Origin: a virus
Direction: 5' to 3' (one strand)
Virus record (IMG/VR): IMGVR_UViG_3300031963_006913
Location: 1-25,588 of that record
DNA length: 25,588 nucleotides
Part shown: in pieces, positions 7,137-25,588 of the stretch
Numbering within the stretch: position 1 is the stretch's first letter
Layout of the letters: each line of letters starts with the position of its first letter
Program-made: the position numbers and the translations under genes
The notes under the pieces: generated by a model
What the model saw: the letters and a program-made list of their open reading frames with translations, nothing else
Database searches by the model: none
What the model was told of the DNA's origin: nothing

Positions 7137-8177
7137 ATGAACGCAGTCGTTCAATTCAACCCCTCGCAGGTGCCCGCTTTCGCCCGCAAAGCCGAACTCT
7201 CTGAGACCGCCAAAGCGCTCGCGGGTGGTGGTGCAGGCGGCAAGCGCATCTCCATCGCCAACGGTGTGTTCCGTCTGCTGGACAATGGCAAAGAGATCGC
7301 CAACATCGAGGAGCGCTACCTCGACGTGGTGATCATCAAGGCGGCGCCCAAGGTCGGTCGCGTCTGGTACGCCAAGAACTACGATTCCGATGCCGCTGCT
7401 GCGCCCGATTGCTGGTCGGCGGACGGCAACACGCCGAGCCCTGAAGCGGAACACCCGCAGGCGGCTACCTGTGCGGCGTGCCCGAAGAACGTCGCGGGCT
7501 CTGGGCAGGGCAACAGCCGCGCCTGCCGTTACCAGCAGCGGATCGCAGTGGTGCTCGCCAACGACATGGAAGGCGCGGTGATGCAGCTTGCGCTGCCCGC
7601 CACCAGCCTCTTTGGCGAAGCCAAGGGCGACAAGCGCCCGCTGCAAGAGTACGCCCGCTGGCTGGCCGCGCAGCGCATCAACCCGGAGACGGTCGTCACC
7701 CGGATGAAGTTCGACCTTGAGGCGGACAACCCCAAGCTAGTCTTCAAGGCGATGCGCTGGCTGTCCGACGATGAGTACGCCACCATCGAGACGCAGGCCG
7801 GCTCGGAGGAAGCGACCAAGGCGGTCACCATGACGGTCGCCAAGCGCGACAACGTGGAACCGGCGCAGCCGGCGCAGCTGGAGGGTGCCCCGCCCAAGGC
7901 CAAGAAGGCGCCTGCGCCGGCCCCGCAGCCTGAGGTGGAAGACGACGTGCCTCCGCCCCCGCCCAAGGCGAAGAAGGCCGCTGCGGCGCCGGCCCCCGCG
8001 CCCGCAGTAGAAGACGATGAGGATGCGCCGCCGCCCCCGCCCAAGGCGAAGAAGGCCGCTGCAGCGCCCGCAGACGACGATGCCGATGAGCCTGAGGTGC
8101 GCAAGCCTGCAGCGAAGCCGGCTGCGCCCGCCAAAGCGGAACTGGCGCAGGCTCTGTCCGACTGGGACGACGAGTAA
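7137..8177 (+). CDS. Probable single-stranded DNA-binding protein with acidic tail
   Basis: The 346-residue protein has an N-terminal globular domain (about 1-245). Four cysteines (C92, C112, C115, C130) around CAACPKNVAGSGQGNSRACR could hold a zinc ion. A low-complexity tail follows, in which PPPPPKAKKAAAAPA blocks alternate with acidic stretches, and the protein ends in LSDWDDE. A basic/proline linker closing in an acidic tip with an aromatic residue is typical of phage and bacterial ssDNA-binding proteins, where the tip recruits replication partners. I recognise the N-terminal domain as one common in phage replication modules, but the ssDNA-binding function is inferred from the domain, the tail and the position between replication genes. 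The ATG lies 7 bases after the previous stop. Confidence 0.7.
   Translation: MNAVVQFNPSQVPAFARKAELSETAKALAGGGAGGKRISIANGVFRLLDNGKEIANIEERYLDVVIIKAAPKVGRVWYAKNYDSDAAAAPDCWSADGNTPSPEAEHPQAATCAACPKNVAGSGQGNSRACRYQQRIAVVLANDMEGAVMQLALPATSLFGEAKGDKRPLQEYARWLAAQRINPETVVTRMKFDLEADNPKLVFKAMRWLSDDEYATIETQAGSEEATKAVTMTVAKRDNVEPAQPAQLEGAPPKAKKAPAPAPQPEVEDDVPPPPPKAKKAAAAPAPAPAVEDDEDAPPPPPKAKKAAAAPADDDADEPEVRKPAAKPAAPAKAELAQALSDWDDE
7953..8062 (+). repeat. 32-base direct repeats in the tail of the ssDNA-binding protein
   Basis: Identical 32-base copies at 7953-7984 and 8031-8062 encode the PPPPPKAKKAAA blocks. A diverged third copy lies upstream around 7890-7921. The period is a multiple of three, so expansion or contraction keeps frame. 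Confidence 0.8.
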
Positions 8178-11570: not shown

Positions 11571-11721
11571 GGTCGGGCAGTCGCTTTTCGTTCCCTGTCT
11601 GGACCTCAAAGGGGTGAGGGAGCGCGGGTTGTTGTCCGCGCTCCCCTTTCGCTACCGCATCACGACAGTGTATGCCATCAAAGACGGCAAGCTAGGCGTG
11701 CTGTTCACTCGGACGCGTTGA
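11533..11721 (+). CDS. Small conserved phage protein at the end of the + strand module
   Basis: The 62-residue protein has the pattern FPWDRVEVGQSLFVP near the start, a central basic helix and KDGKLGVLFTRTR at the end. Small proteins of this layout are frequent next to phage replication genes and have no known function. The gene overlaps the end of the primase-helicase by 38 bases in another frame, and its stop at 11719-11721 lies beyond the stop of the converging giant gene (11705), giving a 17-base tail-to-tail overlap. A perfect 10-base hairpin stem is built into its coding sequence. The conserved-looking sequence makes it a real gene rather than a chance frame. Confidence 0.75.
   Translation: MKHQVRFPWDRVEVGQSLFVPCLDLKGVRERGLLSALPFRYRITTVYAIKDGKLGVLFTRTR
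11608..11649. terminator. Candidate bidirectional terminator hairpin at the convergence
   Basis: GGGAGCGCGG (11618-11627) and CCGCGCTCCC (11636-11645) form a perfect 10-base stem with an 8-base loop. AAAG (11608-11611) and CTTT (11646-11649) can extend it. It is inside the last + strand gene and about 55-95 bases beyond the stop of the giant - strand gene. The T-runs are short, so termination efficiency is uncertain. Confidence 0.45.
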
Positions 11722-14700
11722 CCAAGTCGCGTATCTGGCGGGAAAGCATGATCTCTATCTGCCGAATGTCATCGATCTGCGCTCGCTTCTGCGCGCCGCT
11801 GAGATCAGGGCTGGCGGCGATCTGCCGCTTCTGATCGGCAAGCTCGCCCATCTGCTGCCGGAAGGCACCGCCCGTGGAAGTGAGCGCCAGTTCTCGCGAG
11901 AAGCGATTGGCGAACGCGGCGGCGTCCTCTACCCGCCCTGCTTGCATCATCTCGTTGTACGTCTGCGCAGCGCGCTGGATGCGGTTGATGTCATCAAAAG
12001 CCGCGTTGAGCAGCCCGCGCCCGGACGCGGGCTGGATGAGCGTGCCCAGCATCGGCACTTCGCTGAGCAGGCGCTCGGGCCGCTCGCCCATCTGCTGGGC
12101 TGAGAAAGGCCGCAGCAGCGGGTTGAGCAGCGACATGGCGAGGATGCCCGTCGAACCGGTGTAGCCCCGCACAAGATGCTCGATGGCGATGGGCGAGACG
12201 TTGGCCGTTCCGCCGATGAGCTTGGCAAGCTCGGACGTGTTCTGCCGGAAGCGCTCCCCGGGCTCAAGGCCCATCTCCCGCGCAGACTGGATCGGCTGGT
12301 CGGTGAAGAAGCTGTAGTTGGCCGCAAGCTCGACCACCGGATTGATCGCCGTTGGCAGCGCCAGCGGGCTGGACATCGTCAGCTGCTTACCGAGCGCTCG
12401 TACTGCCTCCGACACCCGCGTATCGCCGAAGGCTGTGTTGATGAGCGCCTCAGGCAGCGACTTGAAGAGCAGGCCGAACTCGAACGGGATGGGCACACGG
12501 ATCGACTCGCCGCCGGGCAGCGGCAAGAACCAGTTCATGGCCCGCTCTTCCGGCGTGGCGTTCTTGTAGGACTCATCGTCCTGCATCAGCAGAGCGTAGG
12601 CCATCGTCAGGCCGGCCATCAGCGCGCCGCGCTCCAGCAGCTTAGCCCGGGCGTTCATCTTCTGCTCATAGGGCACGTCCCCGACGAGCGACCGATAGAA
12701 GATGTCCAGACCCTGCACCTGCGCGTTGAAGAAGGGGATGATGGTCGAGAGCCACAGCATCGACGCGGAGGTTCCTCGCCGCGTGAAGTTCATTGACTCC
12801 AGCGTGCTCAGCAGCGCCTCGACGTGCGTCATGCCTTTGTTGCGGAAGCTGTCGTATACCGCCGCCCGCGTCTGTGCATCGGCCTTCATCGCCATGCCGT
12901 CGAGCTTCGCCATGGCGGTGTTCCAATTAGTACCGCCCGCCGTTACTTGCTGAAGGATGCGCGCAATGTCTTCTGGGTCATTGCTGAACACATGGCTGCT
13001 GACCACGCCGGCCTTGCTCAACGCTTCTTCCGTTTTGTTGAGCTTAGTCGAGAACATGTTGCGAATACCGTTCGCCGCCACTTTGAGCGGCTTCAGGTCG
13101 CCGCCCGTCGTCATCCACGCGTTGAGCGGGTCGCGGATCATCTGCCGTACAACGTAGACAGGCGTCCGTGTGATGGTCTTACGCAGCAACGAGGCCGGGT
13201 AAGACATCGCCTTGACTACAGCGGGAATAGCAGTCTTCACGCCCTGCAGCCCTTGCACGACCATTTCGGGCGTCAGACCCTGCTCTTGGAAAGCGCCGGG
13301 GTCAAGCACGGCAGACAGTTCTTTGCCGTCGGCCTTGAAGCGAATGACGCGTCCGTTCTGGTTGAGCGCCTTGGGTACAATCTGCGCAAGTCCGACTTCT
13401 TTCAGCATGTTGGCTACGTCTTTGGCCTGCAGATTGCGCAAAGACAGCTGCATGAGCAGTGACGTATTGCGCGCCATGCTGGAGAAGACAGGCATGATCT
13501 TGTCAGCACCGCCTACAAGTTCGCGCAGGTAGGGCTGATCGATGACGTTGCCGATGGTGACAGGGCGCGATGCGCCGATATCGAGTTCCAGCACATCGCC
13601 GGAGATGCGATAGAACGGAACGAAGTCGCCTTTCTTGAGTTCCTTTGCCTTTGCGCCGTCAATGACGCCAGAATCTGCCAGCAGATCAACGAGATCGTTG
13701 TTGTACTGCCGATAGATATTCCGCGCTTCTTCAAAAGCGGCTGCAGTGTCGGGATCTGAGGCCACCATCGCTTTGACGGCGTCCCCGTCGCTCTTGTCGA
13801 ACAGTCGCTTGCCTTCTTTGTCCGTACCAAAGTTCAGCTTGCTGTAGCCGTCGGGCATGCTGTCCGCGCGCAGCGCTGCCATCCATGTGGTGAAGGCTTG
13901 CTCAGTGAACTGCTCGTTACCCAGCTTGGCCTTGCGCAGCGCCTGCGCAAGCTGGATGGCGTTGGCCCCACCCTGCGCTTCGACGTAGCGCGTGTCTTCC
14001 TCTTTGTTGAGCTTGATGCCGCCACGCGTCATGGCTGCGCTGAACAGCTGGTTCGTCTGGTCATGCAGTCGCATGTTCACGCGAAGCTGCATGGCCCGCG
14101 CCTCATCGATCTTGCCTTTGGCGATACCCTGTTTGATGATGTGCTCGACCGAAGCCCAGCGGTCCAGCACCGCCTGCCTAAGCGACAGCCCGCCCACGAA
14201 GGCCGTGATCTTGTCACCTAGCGAAGCGTTGCGCCCCACAACCCGCGAGATGGCTTCTGCTGCTTTGGCATTGACACTGGCCGCAGCAACAGGCTTGGTG
14301 GCGGGGAAGACGCCGCGCAGCACGGACGCGATGGCTTTGCTCGTGGTGGACGTAGGCGCTGCCGGCTGGAAGAGCCTGTAGGCCGCTGAGGTGGCCTTCT
14401 GAGAAGTGCTGGGTACATCGAAGCCCAGCAGCCGCAGGAGCGCGTTGTAGATGCGTTTCAGCAGCCCCTCGCGGGCGTCGAGCTTGTTGCGCAGATCAGC
14501 GTTGGACAGAAGCTCGGAGACGAACTCCTTGAGGTCTGTCGAGGCGTACTCCTTGGCGAACTTCGGATCGGCCTTGACCTCGTTGTAGAGCTTCTCAAGC
14601 TCGCGACGCGCCGCACGCTGCTCGGCGGTTATGCCGGTCTTAGCAGGCTCGCCTTGTTTATCTTTAGGCGCATACCGAGAAACCGCTTCTTCAACAAACC

Positions 14701-17700
14701 GGTTGATCGTATCAGCGTACTGCCTGAACTCTTTGACGGCCGTATCTATACCTTTGCTCTCAACATAGTCGTTGATTGCGTAGTCCCAGTCAAAATCGTC
14801 ACGAAATTCGGACTCCATCCATGGAAAATCTTTAACAGCAGGTTGGGCAGCAACATCAGCGGCTTCTCGTAGCGCATCTTCTGCGTTACGATCTAGCATA
14901 GAAAACGCCACATCCTGTCGATCATCCGCCCCACTAAGCAGCCGTTTTATTTCAGCAACCGCTTCGCTTGCGCTAGTGGGCACTTTGCCTAGCTTAGTAG
15001 CACCGGCAACAGCTGCCGTGGTCTGCAGAAAAGCGCGCCTAGACATCTTAGGCGCACCCGCTTCGGACAGCACGCTCAGCGTGGCCGGGTGCACCGCCTC
15101 GTGCAGAAGCGTCTCTTCAGAGAGGAACGCACGGTCGAGCGTGATCGTTGCCGTCTGGGGGTCGTACTTGCCTTCCACCCGGGTGCCGTCGAGCCGCACG
15201 TCATCGGCGAGTTCGACCTTGACCTTGTCGAGCATGTCGGCCAAACGCTTGGCCGTCTCACGGTGCTCCGGCGACTTGGCGTTCTCGCTGAGCAGACGAA
15301 GCGCTTCCTTGAGGTTGTTCTCGCTAAGCGCTTTCGCTACATCGGCGTCAAGCGGCGTGACGGTGCCCCGCGCCTCGTAGAAGCTGTTGTCGTTGCGCAG
15401 TGCGCTGGCTTCTTCGTCACCGACCTCGGGTTCACGCTGTTCGTCAAGCTGGCGAGCACCTGTCTCTCTAGCACGCGCTACGGCGGTAGTAAACTCGCCT
15501 TCAGTGAGCATAACCTCGCCGAGACCTCGAACGTTTTCAACACGTTCTGCTTCAGTCAACGGACGCCGTAAACCTTCAGCCTCGCCTGTACTGACAGCGT
15601 ACAGTCTGTTAAGTACGTCGGTGACCCTTGATGGCGACTCACCTTTAAGTTTCTCGGCTAGCAACAGCGTACCGATACGCTTTCTGAACTCTACGCGACC
15701 TTTTGCCGGATTGGCTACTGCTGATGTCGCAATACCTGCCTCAACCGCTTCGCTGATTTCAGAAAAGTTAATTGCCGTACGCGCCAAGACAGCGGCTTCT
15801 TCCTCTGTAAGCTGCTGCTCAAGCCCTTTTGGGGATGTAGCGTTGATAGGGGTAAAGGGTCCGCGACCGGCGCTTTGCTGAGTAGGCCGCTCTGCCTCAC
15901 GCACTGCAGCGGGTTTGCCTGTGATCTCGTCGGCCAGCTTATTGACTTCACCGATTTCAAACGCGCTGAGCGGGCGATCACGCTCGACAGGACGTGTGCC
16001 TTCGATGAAGTGCTTGCGGTAGTAGCGATTTGCACCACTGGCGCTGCGCCCGTAGTACTGAGCCAGCATAGACAGGTTGCGCATGAGCGGCGTAGTCACA
16101 CGCCGCTTGCGTTGCCTTGCCGCAATACGGTCGACCGTTTTGTGCGTGATAAGCATAGCCAGTTCAGTCTGGCCGCGCATGACCTGTTCGTGGTCTTTGC
16201 GCATCTGCGCTTCACGACTGAGCAGCGACTGCTCTCTTTTTGTGCGAGTGTCTTCGTTGATGAAAGTCGTGCGGACGCCACGCTCTTGCTCGAAGTTGCT
16301 GTTGATATTGGCTAGCTTTTTAACAAGCGCATCGTGCTTAGTGGCAAATTTTTGCTCTGCAGCGACAATCGCGGCTTCTTTATCCGCAATCTGTTTGTCG
16401 AGCTTGGCGTTGACTTGCGCCAACAGCTGCTCACGCGGCGTATCAGGATTGGTGTTCTTGCGAACAAGCGGAGCCAGTTCAGCGCCGGTAAGCAGCTGCA
16501 CACGCGCTTTCTCTTTGATTAGCGCATCTTTGGCAGCGATGAGAGGATCGCGCTTGGCGTTCAGTTTGTCGGTAAGTGCCGTCAACGCGTCTTCGACTTT
16601 GCCTCGATCTTCGACCATCTTGGCGTAGGCGTTGGCGACTTCTTCGGCACGCGTCTTCGCTTTTTCTTCGTAGGCTTTCAGCCTTTCTTTGGCCTTTGCG
16701 CGCAACTGCTCAAGTTCTTCCACCGACACTGCGCCCTTTTCCAGCTTCTGCGCCATCAAATGCGCATACCGCTCTTCTAGCGCCGCAACGTACTCTTGTT
16801 GCTTCTTGGTAAGCCCCCGCTCAAACTCAATGATTCGCCGTTGAACAAGCCTGTTGTCGGAACCGTACATGTCGCCGTACACGGCCCTGAGCGCGCGCTG
16901 TTCTGCTTCACGCGCTTCCTTGCCGTAGCGCTGCTCAAGACGCGCAATGGCTTGCGGAGATCCGACACCCATCAAGAGCCGTACAACACCGCGCTCAGTG
17001 ACGAACACTTCGTCGTCGGCTTGGGCCATGTCTTCCGCAAGCGCCTTCTGCACCCATGCAAGCTCTTTTTCGAGGTTCTTGCGGTCCTCCGAAGCAAGAC
17101 CCGGCGAAGCAAGTGCGACACGCGCCTGAGCTTCTTCCTGCTTGAGAGCTTCACCGCGCTTCATGCGCTTGAAACTGCGCACAGGGTCGATAGCCAGCAG
17201 CAAATCCTCGTCCAGCTGAATGAGCGCCTTGCCTACTTGGTTGGAGACAAGTGCGGGCGCGCCCGGGCGCTTGCCCGTCAGCTTCTCGACAGCTTTCTCT
17301 TTCTGCGCGCGAAGCTCGCCGAGTGCCTGCCGAAGCTCGGACTTCTTCTCTTTGAACTGCACAGCAATCGCGGCAAGCTCTTGCTCCGCCAGTGCAGCGG
17401 CTTGCGTGTCACGGTTGATGTCGGCTTCGAGCGCCAGCAGCCGATCCACGTCCCCGTCCGCTTTGGTGACGGCGTGCTTGGTGGACAGCGCCATGAGTCG
17501 CGCGGCGTTGATGTCTCGCAGCGTCTGTTGTACAGACGCAACACGCTCCATGCGCTCGGCGTAGCGGTCGATGGCCCCTTTGGTGAACTCCATCATCTCG
17601 TTGAAGCGCTGCGTCAGCTTGAACCGCTGCGCCGGCAGGCTAAGTTGCTTGACGGCAGCGAACGAGTTCTCCAGCGATTGCGCCGCTTCTTCGCGCTTCT

Positions 17701-20700
17701 CCGACGAAGTGTCGTCACTTTCGTACGCCTGTCGAAACTCCGACAGGGTGTCTCGAAGCCGACGAATGGCTTCAGCTTGCAGCGCATTGCCACCTTCGAT
17801 GCTGAGCTTCTCCGCCTTTTCCACACCGCGCTCGAACATCAGGATGAGTCGCTGCGCTGCGGAGTAATCCGCCGTGAACTGCGCCCGGGCACCACTCAGG
17901 ATGGGCCTGTTGGCCTTCTCGACAACGTCGCCAAACTCCTTGCTGAACTTCGCGCTGAGTTCGTTGCGCAGCGTTTCAAGCTCTTTCTCTGCTTTGGTGA
18001 GGCCCGTTAGCGCCTCATTACGCTTGCGGTTGCTTGCACCTGCTTCCAGCGCAGTGGCTTGCTCCAGCTTGCTGATGGCTTCACGAATGGCGTCGACGCG
18101 GGCTTTGGCCGGCGCTACCGCTTTCTCCACCTCGACTTCGATGGCTTTCAGTTTGGCGTCAAGCTCGGCTTGCCGCTGCGCACGCTGCGCCTTTTCCAAA
18201 GCTGTACGCCGCTCAAGCTCATCGAAGTCGCGGATGAACGTATCTAGCGCCTCACGCTGTTCCGGCGTGGCCTTGCCTGCGCTCACCGCTTCCAACCAGT
18301 CAACGACCGGCTGACGGGTCTTGACCTCGGCACCGCGCTGCGCAATACGCGGCATCAGCGGACGCAGCTTCTGCAAGCGCTCCTGATCTTCTTTGTCCAG
18401 CTTGCGCTGCGCAGCCTGCTGATACAGCTTCGACAGCTGCTGTACAGGTGCCTCAACCGCCGGCTTGGCCGGCGTGGGCTTGCGCACGGGGAACTCGCGC
18501 CGCTGGCGCGTCAGCAGCCGTTTGCTGAGCATGTCGAAGAAATCGGACCCTGCCGGGTCGCGCAGTGCCTCCCGCACCGCTTGGCGTTGCTCGGGGCTCT
18601 TGGCGATGTCGTTGACGAGATCCCGTACCTCGTCGATGTTGACGCCGCGCATGCGCGGGGGTGGCCCCGCCATGCCTTTGGCCCGCGTTTCGCGCTCGGC
18701 CTCGGCCCGCAGACCACCGCGCTCCAAGCCTCTGGTAAGCAGTTCCGCGATTGCTTCGACTTGCGTCTCGGTAGGCTCCGGGCGCGATAGCTCGATCTCC
18801 TGTGTCTCCGGATTGACGACCTTCTTGGGCTCGAAGTAGCCGACCAGCCGGCGCAGCGCACCCATAAGGTTGCGCTCGTACTCATCGGTTCGTTTTGCGC
18901 GAGCCGGTGTGAGCTTCGGCGGACCCCAGTACTCGGGCGCAGCAGGAGCGGCGCCTTCTGCCGGCTGCTCTTGTCTCGGAGGCCACTGCTTGAACTCAGG
19001 CAGCGGTGCCTCTTCTTCCTCGGCAACCGGCTCGACAACCGGCTCCACGGTCAGTGCAGGCGCGGGTGCAGGCGCTGCAGCCTCAGCGGGCTTGGTCGGC
19101 GCAACGGCCTCTTCAGTCAACTCGGTGGGCTTCACCGCGCCTTTGGTGGGCTCAGGAAGGGCCTCAGTGGCTTCAGGTGCGGCAGGCGGCTCAGTCTGCG
19201 GCTGCGCAGGCGTCTCAGCCTGCGGCTGCGCAACAAGCGCGCGCCGACCGTTGGCCTGTGGGGGCGTGACAACGCCTTCTTCCTCCATCTGCTTGAGCAG
19301 CTTGGCGGCGGGCTTGTAGCCGATTCCCAGCGCTTGCTGGATGGTGCTGACCGTGGGCTTGCCCGCTGCCTGCACCGCCTCGACCGCCTGCGAGTAGAGG
19401 TCAGGGGCCGCTTGGGGTGCTTCAGCTGCCGGCACCTCGGGCGTCGGGATCTCTGCCGTGGCCTGCGGCATCGCCTCTTCAGTCGGGGCCTGCCCCATCA
19501 GCCGGCGCACCTCGACAAGCCTGCGCGCAAGCCTTGCCTGCAGCGACAGGTCACCGCGCCCGCGTGCGGCCTCCATCTCCTTGAGCAGCTTCTTTTCCTG
19601 CTGTTGCAGCGAAGACACGGACGGCGGAGCCGGCGGGGGCGGACCAATGTCGGCAAGCTCTTGCTTGAGCGCTTCCAGCTGCTGCCGTTTGGGCTCCATC
19701 TGAGCATCGAGCGCGATGATCTGCTCCGGCGTCAGGGGCTCCGTACCCTGCGCACGCGCTTGGAGTTCTGCCTCGATGTCCGCAATCCCCTGCTCAACGC
19801 GCGAACGACGTTGCTCAGGGCTCTCCGTGTACCCCAGCTTCGGCGGCAGCGGCTCCGAAGGCTCCAGCCCTTTGACCCAAGTCGGGGGGCCCTGCATACC
19901 CGAGACGTACTCGGGCGGGCCTTCCTCCGCAGGCATCGTCCACTGCGGCGTGGCCGGCTCCGGCGGGCCCATCTCCAGCCCAGTCTTCAGCCGCTCCTCA
20001 CCCATGCGCGTGCCTTCACGCACCGCACGGCCACGCTCCAACGCTGTACCAAACGGCGCAATAGCACCACCCAGCACTGCACCGCCAACGAAGCTCTCAA
20101 AGTACTCTTTGCGCGCGTCTTCATCAGTAATACTTAGACCAGCCTGCAAACGTTCCAGCAGCTGCTGTCCAGACTCTGTGGCACCCTCGACCCCCATAGT
20201 CTTGCCGGTGGCCTTAGCGTAGTCTGTAGCGCGTTGACGCAGCGTTTGCTGTGCAATACGCTGCGCAGTCTCTTCGCTGATGTCGACCCCTGCGCGCCCA
20301 AAGATGCGCCCAATCCCCGGGATCATGCGCATGGACACGATATCGAGCGCCGCTTGCGGTATAGCAGCGGCAACAGCGGCGGTGCCGCTGGTCTCCGCCA
20401 GACGCTTGCCTTCCTCGACGTTGCGCGCGAGGTTGCTGCCGGTGAACTGTGTAAGGGACGTGAGTCCTGCACCACCAAGCGCAGCAAGCCCCGCCGCTGC
20501 AGGCGCACCCACGCCTGTTGCAGCCAACGCCCCCGCACCACCCACCGCCAGCGGTGCAAGCATGTAGGGCACAGACCCCCCGGCAAGCTCGCGAAGCTTC
20601 AACAGCGGGGACTCAAACCACGATGCCTCAGTGGGCTGAAACATCTCTCCCGCACGTTGCTGCTGCGCCGCGTAGATCTGCTCAGCGCGCTCAGGCTCGA

Positions 20701-20917
20701 TGAACCCCGCTTTGCCGGCGGTGAGCGCCGCTTCCCCAAGCAGCCGCTGCGTGCCCGCTTTGGCGGCAGCAGCAAAGCCCTCTTTCGACTTGTCAGGCGC
20801 GGGTTGCCGCAGATACTCCCTGCGTGCTGCCGCCTCAAGCTCCGCCTGCGGAACGCCTTCCGGCCCAGAGAAGCGATAGATGCGTCCGTCCGGGCCTTTG
20901 ACTTCGTAGGTCTGCAT
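11705..20917 (-). CDS. Giant large polyvalent/virion protein (3070 residues)
   Basis: This is one uninterrupted frame. Regions, by residue: Gly/Ala-rich hydrophobic stretch 115-160, possibly membrane-active; second Gly-rich part around 250-310; Pro/Glu/Ala-rich linkers 330-500 and 560-660; FtsK-gamma-like winged helix about 505-560; long coiled coils about 830-1700; metallopeptidase-like region about 1845-2160 with HEAVH at 1939-1943; LPD38-like region about 2560-2830 (RKTITRTPVYVVRQMIRDP, STIIPFFNAQVQGLD); helical C-terminus. Proteins of this kind are large polyvalent proteins of phages. They are thought to be packed in the virion and ejected with the DNA, acting in the host at once. The gene lies last in the - strand virion operon, 12 bases after the 514-residue gene, with AAGGA 9 bases before ATG. 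No transglycosylase motif was found. Confidence 0.85.
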   Translation of the reverse strand: MQTYEVKGPDGRIYRFSGPEGVPQAELEAAARREYLRQPAPDKSKEGFAAAAKAGTQRLLGEAALTAGKAGFIEPERAEQIYAAQQQRAGEMFQPTEASWFESPLLKLRELAGGSVPYMLAPLAVGGAGALAATGVGAPAAAGLAALGGAGLTSLTQFTGSNLARNVEEGKRLAETSGTAAVAAAIPQAALDIVSMRMIPGIGRIFGRAGVDISEETAQRIAQQTLRQRATDYAKATGKTMGVEGATESGQQLLERLQAGLSITDEDARKEYFESFVGGAVLGGAIAPFGTALERGRAVREGTRMGEERLKTGLEMGPPEPATPQWTMPAEEGPPEYVSGMQGPPTWVKGLEPSEPLPPKLGYTESPEQRRSRVEQGIADIEAELQARAQGTEPLTPEQIIALDAQMEPKRQQLEALKQELADIGPPPPAPPSVSSLQQQEKKLLKEMEAARGRGDLSLQARLARRLVEVRRLMGQAPTEEAMPQATAEIPTPEVPAAEAPQAAPDLYSQAVEAVQAAGKPTVSTIQQALGIGYKPAAKLLKQMEEEGVVTPPQANGRRALVAQPQAETPAQPQTEPPAAPEATEALPEPTKGAVKPTELTEEAVAPTKPAEAAAPAPAPALTVEPVVEPVAEEEEAPLPEFKQWPPRQEQPAEGAAPAAPEYWGPPKLTPARAKRTDEYERNLMGALRRLVGYFEPKKVVNPETQEIELSRPEPTETQVEAIAELLTRGLERGGLRAEAERETRAKGMAGPPPRMRGVNIDEVRDLVNDIAKSPEQRQAVREALRDPAGSDFFDMLSKRLLTRQRREFPVRKPTPAKPAVEAPVQQLSKLYQQAAQRKLDKEDQERLQKLRPLMPRIAQRGAEVKTRQPVVDWLEAVSAGKATPEQREALDTFIRDFDELERRTALEKAQRAQRQAELDAKLKAIEVEVEKAVAPAKARVDAIREAISKLEQATALEAGASNRKRNEALTGLTKAEKELETLRNELSAKFSKEFGDVVEKANRPILSGARAQFTADYSAAQRLILMFERGVEKAEKLSIEGGNALQAEAIRRLRDTLSEFRQAYESDDTSSEKREEAAQSLENSFAAVKQLSLPAQRFKLTQRFNEMMEFTKGAIDRYAERMERVASVQQTLRDINAARLMALSTKHAVTKADGDVDRLLALEADINRDTQAAALAEQELAAIAVQFKEKKSELRQALGELRAQKEKAVEKLTGKRPGAPALVSNQVGKALIQLDEDLLLAIDPVRSFKRMKRGEALKQEEAQARVALASPGLASEDRKNLEKELAWVQKALAEDMAQADDEVFVTERGVVRLLMGVGSPQAIARLEQRYGKEAREAEQRALRAVYGDMYGSDNRLVQRRIIEFERGLTKKQQEYVAALEERYAHLMAQKLEKGAVSVEELEQLRAKAKERLKAYEEKAKTRAEEVANAYAKMVEDRGKVEDALTALTDKLNAKRDPLIAAKDALIKEKARVQLLTGAELAPLVRKNTNPDTPREQLLAQVNAKLDKQIADKEAAIVAAEQKFATKHDALVKKLANINSNFEQERGVRTTFINEDTRTKREQSLLSREAQMRKDHEQVMRGQTELAMLITHKTVDRIAARQRKRRVTTPLMRNLSMLAQYYGRSASGANRYYRKHFIEGTRPVERDRPLSAFEIGEVNKLADEITGKPAAVREAERPTQQSAGRGPFTPINATSPKGLEQQLTEEEAAVLARTAINFSEISEAVEAGIATSAVANPAKGRVEFRKRIGTLLLAEKLKGESPSRVTDVLNRLYAVSTGEAEGLRRPLTEAERVENVRGLGEVMLTEGEFTTAVARARETGARQLDEQREPEVGDEEASALRNDNSFYEARGTVTPLDADVAKALSENNLKEALRLLSENAKSPEHRETAKRLADMLDKVKVELADDVRLDGTRVEGKYDPQTATITLDRAFLSEETLLHEAVHPATLSVLSEAGAPKMSRRAFLQTTAAVAGATKLGKVPTSASEAVAEIKRLLSGADDRQDVAFSMLDRNAEDALREAADVAAQPAVKDFPWMESEFRDDFDWDYAINDYVESKGIDTAVKEFRQYADTINRFVEEAVSRYAPKDKQGEPAKTGITAEQRAARRELEKLYNEVKADPKFAKEYASTDLKEFVSELLSNADLRNKLDAREGLLKRIYNALLRLLGFDVPSTSQKATSAAYRLFQPAAPTSTTSKAIASVLRGVFPATKPVAAASVNAKAAEAISRVVGRNASLGDKITAFVGGLSLRQAVLDRWASVEHIIKQGIAKGKIDEARAMQLRVNMRLHDQTNQLFSAAMTRGGIKLNKEEDTRYVEAQGGANAIQLAQALRKAKLGNEQFTEQAFTTWMAALRADSMPDGYSKLNFGTDKEGKRLFDKSDGDAVKAMVASDPDTAAAFEEARNIYRQYNNDLVDLLADSGVIDGAKAKELKKGDFVPFYRISGDVLELDIGASRPVTIGNVIDQPYLRELVGGADKIMPVFSSMARNTSLLMQLSLRNLQAKDVANMLKEVGLAQIVPKALNQNGRVIRFKADGKELSAVLDPGAFQEQGLTPEMVVQGLQGVKTAIPAVVKAMSYPASLLRKTITRTPVYVVRQMIRDPLNAWMTTGGDLKPLKVAANGIRNMFSTKLNKTEEALSKAGVVSSHVFSNDPEDIARILQQVTAGGTNWNTAMAKLDGMAMKADAQTRAAVYDSFRNKGMTHVEALLSTLESMNFTRRGTSASMLWLSTIIPFFNAQVQGLDIFYRSLVGDVPYEQKMNARAKLLERGALMAGLTMAYALLMQDDESYKNATPEERAMNWFLPLPGGESIRVPIPFEFGLLFKSLPEALINTAFGDTRVSEAVRALGKQLTMSSPLALPTAINPVVELAANYSFFTDQPIQSAREMGLEPGERFRQNTSELAKLIGGTANVSPIAIEHLVRGYTGSTGILAMSLLNPLLRPFSAQQMGERPERLLSEVPMLGTLIQPASGRGLLNAAFDDINRIQRAAQTYNEMMQAGRVEDAAAFANRFSRELALTSTGGAFRQQMGELADQKRQIAASPDLSGAQKRAQIDDIRQIEIMLSRQIRDLVNASE
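14640..15050 (-). other. AT-richer insert with a Tat-like motif inside the metallopeptidase region
   Basis: By hand count, 14641-15000 is about 49% GC, against about 64% in flanking lines at 14461 and 15121. The insert encodes residues about 1955-2090. It lies between HEAVH and the downstream ITAEQRAARRELEKLYNEVK and EFVSELLSN segments, which normally follow closely in such domains. It starts with MSRRAFLQTTAAVAGATKL (M1958 at base 15046), which matches a twin-arginine signal. Confidence 0.5.
19230..19409 (-). other. FtsK-gamma-like winged-helix domain within the giant protein
   Basis: Residues about 503-562 read LYSQAVEAVQAAGKPTVS, then IQQALGIGYKPAAKLLKQME and EEGVVTPPQANGRRALV. This matches, segment by segment, the gamma domain at the C-terminus of FtsK/SpoIIIE translocases, a winged helix that reads KOPS motifs. 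No FtsK motor domain is present. It is flanked by Pro/Ala/Glu-rich linkers, as expected for an independent module. Confidence 0.75.
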
Positions 20918-23624: not shown

Positions 23625-25588
23625 TCAAGCGGGGAGGAACTTACGTGCCTTGGAGTCAACTGCTACGGCATTTTTGCCTACAGTCTTGCCTCGACGCTTC
23701 TGAATACGATCCATCATTGCGTAAAGCTGGCGGGCGCCTGCTTCTGTGGACCCGTTACCAAGCTCCGAAACGATACGCGCGGGGATGACAAACTCACCGT
23801 CAGCCAGACGCGCCGGGTGCTTACCGCCGATGCTAGCAGGAATGGAGTCGGAAACGCCGTCCCCGGGCCCACGCAGCAGACGCCCTCCGTCGGAGTAGCT
23901 CCCTAGATGCCCCTCAGCCATACGTCCGCCGGCAGCAAGTGCTGCAATGCCTCCTGCCGCCATGGGCGCCGCCTGCATTTCGCGGAGCAGTTGTTCTCGC
24001 GCAGCCATAAGCTCTTCATCGGTGATGCCCAAACGACGCGCTTCAGACACGAAGGTTTCTTCGGTCATGCCCTGATTGCCTACAAAGTCCTTGTAGGCGT
24101 TCATGATCTCTTGCGTGCTATACGAGCGCGCTGGGGTTTGCTGCGCAGGAGCTTGCATTTCTTGCAGTAGCTGCCCACGCGCAGCCATAAGCTCTTCATC
24201 GGTGATGCCCAAACGACGCGCTTCAGATACGAAGGTTTCTTCGGTCATGCCCTGATTGCCTACAAAGTCCTTGTAGGCGTTCATGATCTCCTGCGTACTA
24301 TACGAGCGCGCAGGAGCTTGCTGCGCAGAAGCTTGCTGCGCAGAAACTTGTTGCGCAGGAGCTTGCTGAACAGCCGCCGGTCTAGCAGGGGCTTGCTGAA
24401 CAGGCGCGCCACGGTACGCGCGAGAAGACGGACGCATACCCATTAGGTATTCGTACGCAATTTGCGACTGCGTTTTGCCGCTGTCGTCCGCGTAGCCGCC
24501 ACCTCCGCCACCCCCGACGCCACCACTTACACTGCCTTGGCCCGCACCCCCTTGAACATTGCCGAACACGCGCGGAGAAGTGTAACGCGGGATGTTTTGC
24601 GTAGTGCCTCCGCTAGTCCCGGTCGTTTGCTGCGTGCCGCCGCTGACCGCGCCTGTAAGCGCTGCAATGCCTAGCGCGGTGGCTGTCGGGTTGTTCGTTA
24701 CGATGTTTTTGACCGTGTCGGCCAAAGCGCCTAAGCCGCCGCCAGTACCAGTGCTGGTACCTGTGCTCGCGCCTGTGCTTGCGCCAGTGCCTGTGATTTC
24801 GTCCACAAGCCGCACATAGTCGTCATACGACGTACCGCCTTCCATTTGATCAATGGCGGCTTTAACAGCGTCATCGGATACATCTTCAACGTCTTTATCA
24901 AAAGCATCGCCCAAATCGCGGTCAAGTACATCACCGCTGGTGCCGCCGCTGTCGGCAATGTCATCACGGGTATCGCCCAAATCGCTTTCAGCGCCGGTCT
25001 GAGCAACCTCTGCGTCGGTAATGTCCGCTTCGGACAGGTCATCGACAACATCTTTACCTAGCGTGTCCGTAAGCTCTGCGTCGGTAATGTCCGCTTCGGA
25101 CAGGTCATCGACAACATCTTTACCTAGCGTGTCCGTAAGCTCTGCGTCGGTAATGTCCGCTTCGGACAGGTCATCGACAACATCTTTACCTAGCGTGTCC
25201 GTAAGCTCTGCGTCGGTGATGTCAGCTTCGGACAGATCATCGACAACGTCTTTACCGAGCGTGTCCGTAAGCTCTGCGTCGGTGATGTCAGCTTCGGACA
25301 GGTCTACGCCCCCCGTGCCTGCGCCGGTACCTGTGATCTCGTCAACAAGCCGGACATAGTCGTCATATGACATACCGCCTTCCATTTGATCAATGGCGGC
25401 TTTAACAGCGTCATCGGACAAATCATCGGCAATGTCTCTACCTAGCGTATTCGCAACCTCTGCGTCGGTGATGTCAGCTTCGGACAGGTCATCGAGGACA
25501 TCGCCCCTACCGCCGGTCTGAGCAACCTCTGCGTCGGTGATGTCGGCTTCGGACAGGTCATCGAGGACATCGCCCCTACCGCCGGTCT
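23625..25588 (-). CDS. Acidic repeat-containing virion protein (5' end outside window)
   Basis: The frame is open to the right edge. A TTG at 25421 is not the start, because the same repeat pattern continues upstream of it to 25588. The N-terminal visible part is made of 22-23-residue acidic units (LSEADITDAELTDTLGKDVV and relatives) and two copies of a 33-residue segment with DDAVKAAIDQMEGG and SYDDYVRLVDEITG. A Gly-rich section, Ala/Gln-rich 5-residue repeats and two copies of a 60-residue unit (YSTQEIMNAYKDFVGNQGMT onward) follow. The C-terminus (ARLADGEFVIPARIVSELGN, then STEAGARQLYAMMDRI) is common in phage virion proteins near tail or internal genes. A structural role is likely; no enzymatic motif is seen. 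Confidence 0.75.
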   Translation of the reverse strand, partial: TGGRGDVLDDLSEADITDAEVAQTGGRGDVLDDLSEADITDAEVANTLGRDIADDLSDDAVKAAIDQMEGGMSYDDYVRLVDEITGTGAGTGGVDLSEADITDAELTDTLGKDVVDDLSEADITDAELTDTLGKDVVDDLSEADITDAELTDTLGKDVVDDLSEADITDAELTDTLGKDVVDDLSEADITDAEVAQTGAESDLGDTRDDIADSGGTSGDVLDRDLGDAFDKDVEDVSDDAVKAAIDQMEGGTSYDDYVRLVDEITGTGASTGASTGTSTGTGGGLGALADTVKNIVTNNPTATALGIAALTGAVSGGTQQTTGTSGGTTQNIPRYTSPRVFGNVQGGAGQGSVSGGVGGGGGGGYADDSGKTQSQIAYEYLMGMRPSSRAYRGAPVQQAPARPAAVQQAPAQQVSAQQASAQQAPARSYSTQEIMNAYKDFVGNQGMTEETFVSEARRLGITDEELMAARGQLLQEMQAPAQQTPARSYSTQEIMNAYKDFVGNQGMTEETFVSEARRLGITDEELMAAREQLLREMQAAPMAAGGIAALAAGGRMAEGHLGSYSDGGRLLRGPGDGVSDSIPASIGGKHPARLADGEFVIPARIVSELGNGSTEAGARQLYAMMDRIQKRRGKTVGKNAVAVDSKARKFLPA
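24001..24311 (-). repeat. 180-base tandem duplication in the virion repeat protein
   Basis: Bases 24001-24131 recur at 24181-24311 with only a few substitutions (for example at 24047/24227 and near 24111/24291). The repeat is in frame and encodes the 60-residue unit with MTEETFVSEARRLGITDEEL. Confidence 0.9.
24316..24375 (-). repeat. 15-base tandem repeats encoding AQQ(A/V)(S/P)-type units
   Basis: Four contiguous 15-base units (GCTTGCTGCGCAGAA and close variants) at 24316, 24331, 24346 and 24361. They encode a Gln/Ala-rich linker between the Gly-rich part and the 60-residue units. A further related unit is at 24136-24150. Confidence 0.8.
24781..25420 (-). repeat. 100-base direct repeat pair spaced 540 bases
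   Basis: 24781-24880 and 25321-25420 are nearly identical and encode the DDAVKAAIDQMEGG...SYDDYVRLVDEITG segment twice. The 540-base spacing is a multiple of three. The 66-base repeats lie between the copies. Confidence 0.85.
25021..25284 (-). repeat. Four 66-base tandem repeats
   Basis: Units begin at 25021, 25087, 25153 and 25219. The first three are almost identical; the fourth has a few substitutions. Each encodes 22 residues (LSEADITDAELTDTLGKDVV plus DD). A partial related unit follows at 25285. Confidence 0.92.
25455..25588 (-). repeat. 69-base repeats running off the right edge
   Basis: The same motif recurs with a 69-base period (copies begin at 25455 and 25524). It encodes the 23-residue variant with EVAQTGGRGDVLDD. 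The array continues beyond the window. Confidence 0.8.

Follow-up and report, generated by a model that had tools for sequence, protein, structure and literature searches.

A polymorphic insert with a Tat-leader-like opening in the zincin domain of a giant phage polyvalent protein

How does a segment that opens like a twin-arginine translocation (Tat) leader come to lie in the middle of a giant phage protein, inside its peptidase-like domain? The question is raised by a phage fragment from the IMG/VR database, IMGVR_UViG_3300031963_006913, whose 25,588-nt stretch (the window) encodes on its minus strand an open reading frame (ORF) of 3070 residues (11705..20917). In this ORF the motif HEAVH at residues 1939-1943 is followed by MSRRAFLQ from residue 1958, as a sequence-only reading of the same DNA had noticed. 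By sequence comparison and structure prediction, we found that the segment is a real insert at a single defined loop, the one joining the HExxH helix to the EFVSE helix in a zincin-like metallopeptidase (MPTase) domain. We give about an even chance to the reading that it is an accessory subdomain that can be exchanged and begins with a Tat-leader-like helix, more likely for docking or folding than for export.

The domain that receives the insert has both ligand-bearing elements of the zincin MPTases of polyvalent proteins. HEAVH (15089..15103, minus strand), with the first and second zinc ligands and the general base, forms the HExxH catalytic helix, and its H, E and H are invariant in 19 homologues. 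The EFVSE helix at residues 2131-2135 (14513..14527, minus strand), which resumes the zincin after the insert and holds the putative third-ligand glutamate, has both Glu invariant in the same alignment. The domain is presumably an active peptidase. Between the two helices, a short loop is all that 16 of the 19 homologues possess, and the other three carry an insert. In L004/L005, which read HEAAHPATLSSLDAPKGEQAQAARAELEKLYSEV, the two domain halves are joined directly; L012 and L016 likewise lack an insert, and the flanks are conserved in L004/L005 and L012. The view that a metallopeptidase-like domain is split here by an insert is therefore borne out by homologues that join the halves through a short loop.

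The insert proper of the window covers residues 1954-2092 (14642..15058, minus strand) and is absent from L004/L005, L012, L016 and other aligned homologues. Its body (residues 1977-2092) has 49.7% GC and 42% GC at third codon positions (GC3), values that rise to 63-64% and 82-83% in the 100 codons flanking it, and among all 2931 segments of 139 codons in the ORF the lowest GC3 belongs to the one beginning at residue 1954. The AT-richer tract of the sequence-only reading is thus real. That reading had named, as an outcome that would speak against it, a segment present in all homologues without a shift in composition; the insert is not universal, the composition does shift, and so the proposal stands on this point.

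Two further lineages of LPD38 polyvalent proteins, L032/L082/L030 and L089, carry an insert of about 140 residues at the same loop. They were found by an IMG/VR pattern scan for HExxH followed by M[ST]RRxFL, together with a family search with the C-terminal domain that gave a set of 80 loci (about 178,000 residues); L089 was recovered by the family search without the motif being imposed. The IMG/VR scans for HExxH plus M[ST]RRxFL returned three lineages only, and a scan that dropped the Met requirement but was restricted to HEA with CAC codons yielded no further lineage. Megablast, blastn and tblastn searches of the region against annotated phages gave no match, nor did tblastn with the L030-type region, so that no cultured relative with the insert is known here; an LPD38 profile search of genome contigs found no relative. 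Several more contigs contain the window-type phage itself, 99.96-100% identical over shared stretches, and they count as a single clonal observation.

For each insert carrier, the nearest sister lacks the insert: L073 for the window type, L084 for L082 and L083 for L089. The nearest relative of the window phage (L004/L073) has flanks of about 80-87% nucleotide identity to it. In all three sister pairs the exchange borders, located from DNA breakpoints, fall at this one loop. In L072 (window type) versus L073, the blastn breakpoints define an interval of 459 nt at residues 1949-2101 (14615..15073, minus strand) in place of 33 nt, and in L082 versus L084 the lengths are 433 and 34 nt; the borders of the L089/L083 pair are similar. 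A tree of the flanking sequence requires at least three gains or losses of the insert, all three forced by well-supported branches, with 99-100% support for the carrier/non-carrier sister pairs. Since the sisters lack the insert and the tree forces three changes, the insert comes, goes or is exchanged within short distances.

The inserts of L082 and L089 are homologous, with 78% identity. Their divergence resembles that of the flanks, with about 0.13 nonsynonymous and about 0.74 synonymous substitutions per site (dN/dS ~0.18), which indicates a maintained protein segment; in this lineage pair, the insert is protein-coding and under purifying selection. The bodies of the window-type and L082-type inserts show no detectable similarity, with scores not above shuffled sequences and an hhalign probability below 1%. 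They are alike in length, site, opening element and predicted order of helices. In composition only the window type is foreign; the inserts of L082 and L089 stand at ordinary percentiles. The two types could be a single ancient module whose body has diverged, or modules that arrived independently.

What the two types share in sequence is the opening. In the window it is MSRRAFLQTTAAVAGATKLG, residues 1958-1977 (14987..15046, minus strand); in L032/L082/L030 it is HEAGHAATYAVASYEAGSGMTRRQFLKGAVTGLTALKLP, and in L089 HEAAHAATNAVASYEAKEFGMTRRQFLQGAGAVLTAVKLP. All three lineages have M[ST]RRxFL[QK], then nine uncharged residues and then KL[GP], with identical spacing, and Met stands directly before [ST]RR in each, though the neighbouring residues differ. 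The heads MSRRAFLQ, MTRRQFLK and MTRRQFLQ agree with the twin-arginine motif SRRxFLK. From the composition of the ORF, M[ST]RR.F[LMIV][KQ] is expected 3e-5 times in it, and across the 178,000 residues of the 80 related loci it occurs at this site only. The element is kept between the insert types with nearly all degenerate codons changed, and its conservation reaches past the Tat consensus to A16, K18 and L19.

With hidden Markov models (HMMs), the Tat family PF10518 of Pfam matches the window insert at E=0.001 and 18.9-19.4 bits, below its gathering score of 22.7, and is similarly weak across the three lineages (18.7-20.0 bits). The NCBIfam model TIGR01409 scores 16.7 bits on the window insert, exactly its cut-off of 16.7, and 13.1-14.8 bits in the other lineages. 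After motif position 8 the uncharged core has nine residues in all three, compared with 13-19 in five Tat signals, one of them a retrieved sequence and four of them E. coli signals. The stated minimum for the hydrophobic region of Tat signals is 12 residues (PMC7317946), so that the nine-residue cores fall short of it in every lineage. Kyte-Doolittle (KD) hydrophobicity is 0.91-1.17 in the elements and 1.35-1.72 in five E. coli signals, no consistent AxA cleavage site was seen at the elements, and the element begins at residue 1958 of an open 3070-residue frame and not at an N-terminus. The near-perfect twin-arginine motif noted earlier holds; the hydrophobic stretch reported with it is short and only mildly hydrophobic.

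A genome-contig scan with the pattern returned mostly Paenibacillus/Cohnella proteins (loci L149-L258) in which an N-terminal MSRRQFL leader follows a chance HExxH. We take these to be Rieske subunits, and they provide natural Tat leaders for comparison.

AlphaFold models of the window and L082 regions agree on a confident zincin core before the insert (predicted local distance difference test, pLDDT, about 90-97) and give mostly 73-90 after it. In model numbering, the core (pLDDT about 90 or more) comprises a helix, E72-76, E88-91, E96-100 and H106-124 (E, strand; H, helix), followed by the helices after the insert. The insert forms a separate helical stretch, and in both models its first helix, at residues 132-145, is the Tat-like element; the inputs for the two models each aligned both insert types, and the models are accordingly not independent. 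Insert pLDDT is moderate in L082 (56-81). A sequence search of the PDB with the insert gave no significant match, and a PDB fold search gave weak matches only, including the small metallopeptidases selecase and jannalysin.

Taken together, we propose that the subdomain stands where other homologues have a short loop linking the HExxH helix to the EFVSE helix with its putative third ligand. It would not disturb the catalytic core and is predicted, with moderate to low confidence, to form a small helical protrusion on it. Its first 20 residues would be a helix headed by the twin arginine (RR), derived from or mimicking the head of a Tat leader but truncated in its core. The role would most likely be to dock or position the peptidase, through a partner or by contact with the inner membrane, and docking would change where or on what the peptidase acts, with the giant protein itself not exported. 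We consider it unlikely that the RR-headed helix serves in export; docking or a structural role is more probable. An interaction of the helix with TatBC, the receptor of the host Tat system, or with the membrane site of this receptor is highly doubtful; it would anchor the injected peptidase at the inner membrane or disturb host Tat export. Several points count against an exchangeable docking subdomain. Docking is argued solely from the fact that the RR helix recurs; over their 20 residues the helices show no more than mild amphipathicity; for the first half of the window insert AlphaFold confidence is low (37-53); and the known insert-bearing lineages number only three, one of them seen as clonal copies.

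An unlikely competitor is that the insert is a relic of gene capture, in which in-frame recombination brought into the loop the 5' end of a gene encoding a Tat-exported protein, and the leader-like start is now no more than tolerated structure. Under this explanation, the conserved Met directly before [ST]RR, found amid differing neighbours, and the foreign composition of the window lineage would both be present because a 5' gene end was captured, and the truncated core, unlikely to export, would also fit. However, no donor was found in plasmids, in bacterial genomes sampled from one class or in other viral contigs; the captured gene fragment suggested by the sequence-only reading is plausible. 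Capture alone also does not easily explain why the element was kept while the bodies diverged beyond detection, or else why two captures both took Tat leaders at the same site; either way, this points to a role for the element. That the RR-headed helix is a coincidence, an ordinary structural elaboration of a zincin loop with no evolutionary or functional link to Tat, is in our estimate quite unlikely. Variable inserts are normal at this position in polyvalent MPTases (PMC5512222), the conservation of A16, K18 and L19 would fit a specific fold, and the core is not Tat-like, but a motif expected 3e-5 times per ORF nevertheless begins at a Met in every insert-bearing lineage.

We regard as very doubtful a working Tat signal, by which, after delivery, self-cleavage near residue 1955 or internal initiation at M1958 would expose the leader and direct the last ~1113 residues of the protein to the Tat translocase or the inner membrane. 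The near-consensus motif, the Tat HMM matches and the conserved Met speak for it, the K after the core resembles the basic residue of the Tat c-region (PMC7317946), and self-processing has been proposed for polyvalent MPTases (PMC5512222). Moreover, Rieske proteins of actinobacteria have documented internal Tat signals (PMC5449189, PMC13186574), and the statement of the sequence-only reading that such a signal in mid-protein cannot be a normal leader is therefore too strong. The Rieske signals share with the phage element an RR motif inside the protein, but they lie after Sec-inserted transmembrane helices and before a real transmembrane helix (PMC5449189), whereas the phage element lies within a predicted soluble peptidase fold. 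The nine-residue core and the low hydrophobicity tell against export, a cut at the motif would separate the zinc ligands of the peptidase, and most relatives manage without the insert. Internal initiation at M1958 is not supported by the sequence: among the internal ATGs of this phage, M1958 stands at the 7th percentile for Shine-Dalgarno (SD)-like pairing upstream, but pairing upstream of the element Met is unremarkable in L082 and L089, two of the three lineages, and no consistent ribosome-binding-site pattern appears across the lineages. With no consistent AxA site either, a segment exposed for export after self-cleavage is not supported. Finally, a mobile intron, intein or other genetic element at the active-site region would account for patchy presence at one conserved site, but it has become very improbable and is largely refuted. 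There is no Rfam match and there are no notable flanking repeats, inspection of the sequence shows neither the Cys/Ser start nor the His-Asn end of an intein, and the insert is in frame and under purifying selection as protein.

The closest known system is the polyvalent zincin MPTases of Iyer et al. 2017 (PMC5512222), which share HExxH and the Glu helix, a giant multidomain phage protein with LPD38, and a variable insert between the two ligand helices. Such inserts at the zincin loop are thus already known; the text of PMC5512222 nowhere mentions a twin arginine or a signal peptide. No description of a recurrent Tat-leader-like opening on inserts polymorphic for presence and absence was found in the literature searched. 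An accessory subdomain of this kind means that the exchangeable modules of a phage polyvalent protein sit in a catalytic domain too, beyond the linkers, and that in all known lineages the module opens with a likeness to a host targeting signal. Should the RR helix have a function, phage injection proteins would be linked to the Tat receptor or the inner membrane. Sister proteins that differ mainly by the insert allow direct comparison.

By the definition of Iyer et al. 2017 (PMC5512222), the 3070-residue ORF as a whole encodes a large polyvalent protein of the phage type. It has an LPD38 domain at residues 2781-2955 (12053..12577, minus strand; PF18857, E=1.5e-32, above cut-off) and an FtsK gamma domain, a DNA-binding winged helix, at residues 506-561 (19235..19402, minus strand; PF09397, E=2.5e-13). 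Its PHROG matches, which include 9854 and 18222, are mostly of unknown function. In a fold search with the model of the L082 zincin region, the nearest viral matches, of weak to moderate significance, include large polyvalent proteins and podovirus internal or core proteins. Among the latter, the core protein of Pseudomonas phage Ab05 and the internal protein D of Bordetella phage BB8 match at the fold level only weakly (E 0.02-0.1). Judged by its family and fold neighbours, the giant protein is probably internal to the virion, packaged and injected. On its plus strand the window encodes a family A DNA polymerase, an SNF2-type helicase and a DUF927 protein.

Some minor features of the locus were also observed. 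A near-identical copy of the phage, L003 (IMGVR 3300032050_000111), has an in-frame TAG at the codon for Q of YDPQTAT, shortly before HEAVH, which breaks the giant ORF into 1924 and 1149 residues and is either a population variant or an assembly error. L073, L077 and L089 show a second variable site, each with a different extra segment of about 100-230 residues between the zincin end and the conserved C-terminal region. The segment of L089 has a weak ART-PolyVal match (E=0.009), those of L073 and L077 have no Pfam match, and the window has no segment there. Elsewhere in the window, the C-terminal part of a 346-residue ORF contains coding repeats of the PPPPKAKKAA type (7888-8071, plus strand). 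The ORF at 23625-25586 (minus strand) has many near-identical repeats of the type LSEADITDAELTDTLGKDVVDD, which probably cause its pentapeptide-repeat match, and blastn matches between phage copies are repeat-shifted in this region.

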